From Nocardioides anomalus (lineage in GTDB: Bacteria > Actinomycetota > Actinomycetes > Propionibacteriales > Nocardioidaceae), in contig NZ_CP049257.1 of the NCBI RefSeq assembly GCF_011046535.1, positions 1 to 64,000 on the forward strand: a stretch of 64,000 nucleotides of DNA. The letters run 5' to 3'. Both the position numbers and the translations under genes were made by a program. Position 1 is the stretch's first letter; every line of letters starts with the position of its first letter. The notes below the pieces were generated by a model. It searched no databases. It saw only the letters and a program-made list of their open reading frames with translations, and was not told the DNA's origin. This document shows, piece by piece, positions 47,646-53,290 of the stretch.

Positions 47646-51536
<3,891 letters not shown>

Positions 51537-51545
51537 CGCCTTCCG

Positions 51546-51585
51546 CAACGGCCCCTGCTCCCTTCGTGGGGAGTGGGGGTCGTTG
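51546..51585 (+). terminator. Terminator after rpoC
   Basis: A 17-bp stem (51546-51562 with 51569-51585, three G-U pairs) and a 6-nt loop, 9 bp after the rpoC stop. Confidence 0.85.
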
Positions 51586-51629
51586 TGCTTGTCTGGGTGC
51601 TGCTTCTCGTGTTGCGGGCTCTCGGGTCC

Positions 51630-51813
51630 GGCCGCCTGTGGGCTGACCCGGCCACCGCCTGACCGCAGCCCCCTCACCGAACGCAACCGACGCCGTGTTG
51701 CACGCGGCTGCTTCCAGCGTGGTTGCGTCTCGTGTGCATGCCCCACGCCGCGGGTCTAGCGTTCGGCGAGGGGGCTGCGGTCCGGCGGGGGCCGGGTCAG
51801 CCCACAGGCGGCC
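51630..51813. repeat. Long inverted repeat, 55-bp arms, 74-nt interior
   Basis: Arms 51630-51684 and 51759-51813 match as reverse complements at 52 of 55 positions (mismatches at arm positions 25, 31 and 47). The interior holds a smaller stem, CGCAACC (51682-51688) with GGTTGCG (51721-51727), and a mini-hairpin CGTG-TTG-CACG. No convincing gene lies across it; a 103-codon frame (51695-52006) ends in a hairpin and has no homology that I recognise. Function unknown. Confidence 0.85.
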
Positions 51814-51898
51814 TGGTCTGGCGGCGGCACCGTCTCGTCTCCGCCTTCACGGGTGGGTGGGGGTGTGGTGCGGGTTGCCGCGGCCGGCGCCGCCGAGA

Positions 51899-51974
51899 AC
51901 TTGTAACGCGCAGTTATCGGATCTTCCGACCCGTTGCAACGGGTCGACAGTTCCCGTAACTGAGCGTTACAAGT
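51899..51974. repeat. Second inverted repeat with inner perfect palindrome
   Basis: Outer arms 51899-51916 and 51957-51974 match at 17 of 18 positions (ACTTGTAACGC..CAGTTA), unusually A/T-rich for this genome. A perfect 18-bp palindrome, GACCCGTTGCAACGGGTC, lies inside at 51928-51945. As RNA it would be a long two-level hairpin. It is followed 18 bp later by a terminator-like palindrome. Confidence 0.8.
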
Positions 51975-51991
51975 GCGTGGAGGCGGACCGC

Positions 51992-52017
51992 AGCGTGGCC
52001 GCCTAGGCGGCCGCGCT
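51992..52017. terminator. Terminator-like palindrome downstream of the second inverted repeat
   Basis: Arms AGCGTGGCCGCCT and AGGCGGCCGCGCT pair over 13 positions (one G-U as RNA), followed by TTCG. It could end a small untranslated RNA transcribed across 51814-52017. Confidence 0.55.
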
Positions 52018-52046
52018 TTCGTGGGCGGGGCGCAGCCTCGCCCTCA

Positions 52047-52168
52047 GCGCGCCCTCACCAGCCAGACCGGGTCCCGCTGTCAAGGACGGACCTGTCGCCG
52101 AAGGCCGCCGTCCGCCACGAAGTGGCGCGTAGCGTCCTTGACAGCGGGAGTCGGGCTGGTGAGCGCGC
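52047..52168. repeat. Third, nested inverted repeat
   Basis: Outer CTCACCAGCC (52054-52063) pairs with GGCTGGTGAG (52154-52163), and flanking GCGCGC copies extend it; inner TCCCGCTGTCAAGGAC (52072-52087) pairs perfectly over 16 bp with 52134-52149. The centre contains CGCCAC-GAA-GTGGCG. No gene seen. Confidence 0.8.
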
Positions 52169-52246
52169 GGCCGCTACGCAATTGGTCCCGCCGACCCACA
52201 GACACGGCGAAAGGCCAGCAGGAGCCCAGGTCGAGGAGGGCGACCG

Positions 52247-53170
52247 TCACAGTCCCGACGGTTCGTAGGAGAACGCGGCTGAGGCCTCCCGGATGAGCGA
52301 CGTCGCGGTCGCCAGGTTGGGGCTCGTGGACCGGCTCCGTGTGAGGTGGCGCAGGACGACCCGGCGCATGCCGAGGCCCGGGATGTCCAGGGTGTCGACG
52401 CCCTCGGCCGGGAGCGACTCCAGGGCCAGGGCGGGCGCGAGGGTGATGCCGGCTCCGGCGGCGACCAGCGCGAGGGCGTTCTGGTAGCTGAAGTAGATGT
52501 GCTGGTCCGACTCGTCGCCGCCGAGCTCGCGGCGGACGCGGCGCACGGCGGCGGCGTTGGCGGCGGAGGGGTCGAGGCCGAGCCAGGGGAGGCCGAGGCG
52601 GGTGAGGTCGACGACGTCGGCGCTGATCAGGGCACCGGTGGGGACGACGAGCTGCCAGGGCTCGTCGAGGAGGGGCACGTCGGTGGTGCCGCGCGGGGGC
52701 GTGTAGCTCTCGCCGGCGTCGAGCTCGACGATGGTGGCGTCCAGGGAGCCGGCGCGGAGCATGCGGAACAGGTCGGCGTCCTCGGCCTCGACGGTCTCGA
52801 AGCGCAGGGCGGGGTAGCGCTCGCGCCAGTCGGGGAGGGCAGGGGCGAGCACGGAGGCCAGGAACGACTGGAAGCCGCCGATGCGGATGGTGCCGGTGAC
52901 GTCGGCGTCCTCCTCGGCCAGGCGGGTGACGGCGACGGCGAGGGCGCGCTCGACGTCCTCGGCGGCCTCGGCCAGGGCCAGGCCGGCCGGGGTGAGGACG
53001 CTGCCGCTGGACGTGCGCTGCAGCAGGGTGTGGCCGGTCTCCTGCTCGAGCCGGGCCAGCTGCTGGGAGACGGCGGAGGCGGTGACGCTGAGCTCGTCGG
53101 CGGCCGCCAGCACGCCGCCGTAGCGGGCGACGGCGAGCAGGAAACGGAGCCGGCGGGGGTCGATCGTCAC
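52247..53170 (-). CDS. LysR-family transcriptional regulator
   Basis: A 307-residue LysR regulator: N-terminal helix-turn-helix (RRLRFLLAVARYGGVLAAADELSVTASAVSQQLARLEQ, key residues A-A-x-x-L-x-x-T-A-S-A-V-S-Q-Q) and a periplasmic-binding-like effector domain. GTG at 53170 is chosen because the helix-turn-helix then begins at the usual residue 5; a longer frame to 53371 crosses the divergent promoter. Its upstream region is A/T-rich and may hold the T-N11-A binding site. Divergent from the small membrane protein at 53291. Confidence 0.9.
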   Translation of the reverse strand: MTIDPRRLRFLLAVARYGGVLAAADELSVTASAVSQQLARLEQETGHTLLQRTSSGSVLTPAGLALAEAAEDVERALAVAVTRLAEEDADVTGTIRIGGFQSFLASVLAPALPDWRERYPALRFETVEAEDADLFRMLRAGSLDATIVELDAGESYTPPRGTTDVPLLDEPWQLVVPTGALISADVVDLTRLGLPWLGLDPSAANAAAVRRVRRELGGDESDQHIYFSYQNALALVAAGAGITLAPALALESLPAEGVDTLDIPGLGMRRVVLRHLTRSRSTSPNLATATSLIREASAAFSYEPSGL

Positions 53171-53290
53171 TTCAGCAACGCTAAATCCAGAGTGGAGCAG
53201 AGTGCAATTGTTCTTACTCCTCGAATACCCCACCATGGATCTCGTCGGGCCGGTGGTCGGCCACGTATGAGAGACACGAGGAACACGGAC

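Follow-up and report, generated by a model that had tools for sequence, protein, structure and literature searches.

The window, a stretch of 64,000 nucleotides at the start of Nocardioides anomalus contig NZ_CP049257.1, carries on its + strand an open reading frame at 47646..51536 that we take to be rpoC, from the name given by the sequence-only reading and from the look of its sequence; it was taken from the list of open reading frames, and its C-terminus aligns with those of relatives. It is aimed into an intergenic stretch that opens with a terminator-like hairpin (51550-51581) and a G/T-rich tail (51582-51592), both recognised by eye on the + strand (51550..51592), and that closes at a convergent gene on the − strand (52247..53236; stop codon 52247-52249, TCA on the + strand), which by reading appears to be LysR-like. 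Between the two lies the inverted repeat that the sequence-only reading had reported, and an inverted-repeat search with a recount confirmed it: the arms at 51630-51684 and 51759-51813 are complementary at 52 of 55 positions (95%) and enclose 74 nt (51685-51758) that form stems of their own. As RNA, positions 51600-51850 folded to -182.7 kcal/mol, compared to a mean of -126.1 (sd 5.3) for shuffled sequences (z -10.7, with 0 of 200 shuffles equal), and the opposite strand of the same stretch folded as DNA gave z -11.9, again equalled by 0 of 200 shuffles. That reading had also judged the repeat to be far longer than any terminator. It has a 55-bp stem whose right arm is followed by TGGTCTGGCGGCGGC, and in most copies of the element described below by TGGT(C/T).GGCGGC, rather than the short GC stem and U tract of an intrinsic terminator.

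The 55-bp arms are the inner part (module A, 51630..51813, + strand) of a longer element that spans ~51593-52240. Its left end, CTGGGTGCT..CTCGTG.. (51593..51629, +), is a sharp limit of homology, set at 51593 both by alignment of 33 copies with their flanks and by a left-end pattern search. Module A is followed by a spacer (51814..51887, +) with the G/T-rich stretch GGGTGGGTGGGGGTGTGGTG in the rpoC copy; a canonical four-run G-quadruplex was sought here, and a conserved quadruplex was discarded since only some copies carry the pattern. Next come module B, a palindrome CTTGTAACGC..GCGTTACAAG without strand (51888..51985), a small hairpin GTGGCCGCCTAGGCGGCCGC on the + strand at the base of C/D, visible as an overlapping palindrome at 51992-52017, and module C/D, an inverted repeat with TGTCAAGGACG..CGTCCTTGACA (52048..52169, +). 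The right end (52170..52246, +; terminus approximate) consists of GCTACGCAATTGGTCCC and a T-poor, partly conserved tail. The right tails, at 52188-52246 in the window and in 28 copies, are A-rich and almost devoid of T, the opposite of the G/T-rich left tail.

The sequence-only reading had listed the lack of a second copy among the findings that would refute it, and that lack is contradicted here: a 251-bp query around the inverted repeat yielded at least 33 direct copies in the 5.12-Mb chromosome, at 77-100% identity, a lower bound for which 40 of 136 first-look candidates were scored. Independently, the left-end pattern search returned the identical 33 places together with chance-like matches, and all 33 left ends so located belong to copies with module A, right ends not being fixed. 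A right end, GCGGCCGC(T)ACGCAATTGATC followed by a partly conserved tail of ~65 nt, was recognisable in 28 of the 33, and these measure ~497-655 bp. By a census with simple motifs, 15 copies have A, B and C/D, 11 have A and C/D, six have A and B and one has A only, so that A occurs in 33/33, B in 21/33 and C/D in 26/33. Palindrome B is also found solo, near-perfect and ~72-80 bp long, at eight further places (L163-L170, at 4197619, 3999423, 1217337, 2749590, 835676, 2806996, 2825505 and 1855619). No gene was called within the element at the threshold used, with calls made by a home-made hexamer score rather than a standard annotator, and raw open reading frames do overlap it. With 33 such places the family fits a MITE in the broad sense, defined by several nearly identical copies that are dispersed and contain no gene for a protein, and no autonomous relative was seen.

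Comparison of the module A stem across 32 copies (31 distinct rows; L019, whose motif was missed, was left out) revealed a few clearly distinct versions, for example CAGCCCCCTCACCGAACGC / GCGTTCGGCGAGGGGGCTG and GGTGTTCACCGCCGAAGGC / GCCTTCGACGGCGAACCCC. In the RNAalifold structure 97.7% of cells were paired, versus 92.2% when shuffled, and 81 cells were changed on both sides of the stem, versus 31.9; neither value was reached in any of 500 shuffles, and pairing fell to 30-57% when the partner was shifted by 1-3 columns. Further pair types were not above expectation (19 versus 20.2, reached by 500 of 500 shuffles), and the covariation rests on few stem versions common to many copies, so that many cells correspond to few events. 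On these counts the stem is maintained by paired changes, and the other two earlier guesses, a structured RNA or a DNA secondary-structure site, may yet apply. The interior is mostly invariant save for two short variable blocks. Found in columns ~54-70 of alignment A1, the two blocks (GTGG/CCCT/CCCC/CCCG.. and CTCG/TGCG/CCGG/TGGG..) are freely recombined from one copy to the next. Copy L026 combines the left arm of one stem version with the right arm of another and has lost pairing, which looks like the outcome of gene conversion or of recombination between copies.

Related elements were sought in 215 Nocardioides genomes. With a 656-bp query, and the best two candidates taken per genome, some match occurred in 43 of them (own genome included), many of these weak. 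A covariance model of the A core, run on 17 candidates per genome, matched three of the 215: N. anomalus itself, N. halotolerans (E 3e-8), where the match is a single copy with a different stem, and Nocardioides sp. RYN_209 (E 3e-4). A loop pattern picked out 38 genome stretches, 11 of them in Nocardioides (eight in RYN_209, two in N. rubriscoriae and one in N. halotolerans), the other 27 being taken as chance matches, of which one was inspected (L108, coding-like). Two of the stretches, L103 and L140, lie behind a common gene and could be a single place that was assembled twice. The elements in these three genomes share the loop GCCGTGTYGC..GCSCCACGCCGCG with that of N. anomalus, and their left end, GGTTGGTC(C/T)G, resembles its TTGGTCTGGG; several lie directly behind a stop codon. 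Those of RYN_209 and N. rubriscoriae have two facing loops in one element and long terminal inverted repeats, whereas that of N. halotolerans has a single loop; in L107, L113, L117 and L128 the two facing loops have a long inverted repeat, GGTTGGTC(C/T)GCGCGCC, on either side. In the same four, a mid-loop stretch of 28-36 nt is highly variable between copies within an almost constant frame.

These data bear on whether the element is a structured non-coding RNA that has its own function, with the conserved 74-nt loop as its active part, and was multiplied in N. anomalus. Conservation of the interior in all aligned copies while the stem covaries would be expected of such an RNA, as would the lone match in N. 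halotolerans, whose stem is different. Against it, Rfam gives no match, the two short loop blocks vary freely among copies, and the mid-loop is not constant among the copies of RYN_209 and N. rubriscoriae, so that we regard this explanation as improbable. The remaining modules also have counterparts in the genus. Palindromes resembling B are present in other Nocardioides, and a C/D-like hairpin unit, GTCAAGGACG..CGTCCTTGAC, occurs at intergenic places in several (L055, L060, L061, L063, L064 and L067). Some C/D-like units lie at contig ends, as repeats do. Since B- and C/D-like units recur in other genomes, the element is composed of hairpin units that are spread more widely through the genus Nocardioides.

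Empty sites were examined at two of the 33 places, the rpoC junction and the gap between gpsA and metC. In the 260 nt 3' of the rpoC stop the element was absent from all 20 relatives read, many of which have an ordinary GC hairpin there. The end of gpsA was found in 15 of 18 relative loci, none of which carries the element; metC lies downstream in 12 of these 15, at a gap of 9-158 nt in nine and of 356, 386 and 1217 nt in the other three, compared to 673 nt in N. anomalus. The 251-bp query had no match among 24 genomes of the same genus. A profile scan of 20 proteins encoded beside the element indicated that gpsA, PaaZ, HemB and NusB are full-length, their ends and those of the profiles differing by 0-3 positions, the other 16 being of a kind that does not decide; the idea that genes are cut short by the element, or generally owe their stops to it, was set aside, as the gpsA terminus is the same as in relatives. 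Hypermutation was weighed as the origin of the G/T-rich tract at rpoC and set aside as well, with a single example to go by. With 33 dispersed copies, and with the rpoC and gpsA junctions empty in those relatives that were readable there, the guess of a miniature mobile element has the best support among the three made earlier.

The copies are placed in a characteristic way relative to genes. The left gene is aimed into the element in 22 of the 33, and in 19 of these 22 its stop lies 0-11 nt before the element; over all of them the distance spans 0-56 nt, a spread that is odd for a precise target and counts against a mobile element. The stop of the left gene is TAG in 18/22, versus 157 of 708 sampled genes (p 1e-8). 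Immediately 5' of TAG stands a G or a T in 15 of the 18, versus 51 of 157 in the background. GTAG accounts for 12 of the 18 and precedes 12 of the 33 copies, at variable distance. The 8 nt 5' of the element contain on average 6.8 G/T in the 33 copies, versus 3.7 of 8 after 708 stop codons. Right-hand genes that end at the element also stop at TAG in 10 of 20 cases (p 0.007). Neighbours are convergent at 15/33 copies, versus 119 of 699 (p 2e-4), and the other copies run along both neighbours (seven), against both (five) or lie between divergent genes (six); the left gene is aimed away in 11 of the 33, including these six. Convergent genes are tightly packed in the sampled stretches of this genome, the 119 pairs having a median gap of a few nt and, most commonly, a 4-nt overlap.

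Placement of this kind is also what one would predict of a 3'-end element useful to the host: where genes converge, a long hairpin could terminate transcription or shield the mRNA, and would have spread by duplication since it was helpful. The 15 convergent sites, the 19 of 22 left genes that stop 0-11 nt before the element, the 55-bp stem maintained by paired changes and the four of eight solo B palindromes that lie between convergent genes all speak for it. Several other observations do not fit: six of the 33 copies have divergent neighbours and five more run against both of theirs; the 12 co-directional sites divide into seven copies along the genes and five against, so that transcription direction does not set orientation; relatives manage at rpoC with short gaps and ordinary terminators; and three copies (rpoC, L012 and L022) still keep, by eye, a terminator-like hairpin 5' of the element. 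An origin as a host 3'-end device is accordingly doubtful to us, and the element may have a role as a functional 3'-end RNA or insulator.

Orientation was analysed with dnaA at 4,596,918 and its antipode taken as the terminus; the arms rest on these two points, the GC skew of the samples being too flat for a clear origin or terminus. So defined, 29 of the 33 copies point with replication (p 5e-6 against one half; p 3e-4 against the 59% of sampled genes, 433 of 732, that lie on the leading strand). The alignment holds in every class of site, with 13/15 at convergent sites, 7/7 and 4/5 at co-directional sites and 5/6 at divergent ones, the 4/5 being copies whose neighbour genes both run opposite. 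The + strand of the element would then be the lagging-strand template, and fixed orientation to that template, known from IS200/IS605 derivatives and not unique to that family, applies to 29/33 copies. A polar chromosome marker, that is, a hairpin used in replication or segregation and for that reason directed along the replication arms, would account for the 29 copies, and for the 4 of 5 that follow replication even between genes of opposite direction. It is hard to reconcile with a family of just 33 copies that is absent from 24 genomes of the same genus and whose loop relatives were found by the covariance model in two others of 215; orientation bias is moreover known for ordinary transposable elements, reportedly the subject, by its title, of Gomez et al. 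in 2014. We therefore give a chromosome marker very little credence.

For an element that moves, a mobiliser would be expected, and two families were searched for, Y1 transposases and reverse transcriptases. Neither was found: Y1 (PF01797) had no match in the N. anomalus genome, in a search whose control was positive in five of 14 genomes, and RVT_1 detected no reverse transcriptase there. Y1 transposases of high-GC Gram-positives are reported to be almost confined to one subclass (PMC6006769). Target duplications, which the sequence-only reading had proposed to look for, were not detected: in 28 copies the two flanks of a copy had no more direct words in common than expected, although a short duplication could escape as the right terminus is unfixed. 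Phage and plasmid collections had no match to the element, and two stretches in viral contigs have flanks that, by eye, are unlike it. In Rfam the query gave two miRNA matches far below the cut-offs, and none of eight loci had a match at E 0.05. An outer stem, in which the left tail of a copy would pair with the right tail of the same copy, was tried and rejected (permutation p 0.33-0.48).

Searches of the open-licence literature listed no description of such an element in Nocardioides, and the earlier remark that no element of this form has been described is fair for the exact element, not for its kind, as BOX and REP/REPIN are close analogues. BOX elements are built modularly as A-B-C. Compared by form only, a kinship in sequence not being expected, they and the N. 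anomalus element are both species-limited, interspersed, highly structured and modular, but the N. anomalus units are long GC-rich hairpins directly behind stops and aligned with replication. For the pneumococcal BOX elements, one account describes species-limited interspersed repeats with extensive secondary structure and past spread, deemed parasitic by its authors (PMC3049150). GTAG REPs and REPINs, as two accounts describe them, are hairpins mostly 3' of genes whose GTAG ends often give a TAG stop, with paired changes in REPIN stems (PMC3733652, PMC3116915). The left stops described above (TAG in 18 of 22, GTAG in 12 of those 18) recall them, but REPs measure 20-40 bp, versus 500-655 bp here, their GTAG stands at the hairpin foot, versus a TAG 0-56 nt away from the element, and their RAYT transposase, a Y1 enzyme, had no match in the N. 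anomalus genome.

Group IIC introns insert behind terminator-like sites and are biased to one replication strand. The N. anomalus element is like them in gene-end position and strand bias, but no Rfam intron model matched it and no reverse transcriptase was found, which leaves no sign of a group II intron in these searches. IS200/IS605 elements and their non-autonomous derivatives have subterminal hairpins, insert into the lagging-strand template and take a fixed orientation to replication (PMC6006769). The ends of such elements are recognised and cut as single strands by TnpA. In contrast to these, N. anomalus yielded no TnpA or other Y1 gene, and no fixed short target is definable at the left end of its element.

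Altogether, we consider it likely that the element is non-autonomous and interspersed, a repeat akin to MITE, BOX and REP. It has the look of a small selfish element, though no mobiliser came to light in the Y1 and reverse transcriptase searches, and its spread, position and orientation fit insertion coupled to replication. Such a repeat would have multiplied by inserting into the G/T-rich DNA where genes end, mobilised in trans by a protein that has since been lost or that belongs outside the families searched; the folded + strand, as the lagging-strand template, would be the likely recognised form, and B and C/D would have been lost from single copies, probably by slippage across hairpins. 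More speculatively, and as a proposal that we hold tentatively, it may belong to a Nocardioides hairpin family that travels in the form of folded single-stranded DNA and enters the lagging-strand template where gene ends carry TAG and are rich in G/T, by means of a recombinase that is neither a Y1 enzyme nor a reverse transcriptase, with the largely conserved loop and its few variable blocks as recognition site and with stems, B and C/D exchangeable. Small hairpin repeats shape many bacterial gene ends, and the best understood of them need Y1 transposases; a family of 33 copies, aligned with replication and adjacent to stops, in a genome that yielded no Y1 gene raises the question of what moves it. 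Its copies are natural test sites for the effect of a 55-bp hairpin behind rpoC and other housekeeping genes.
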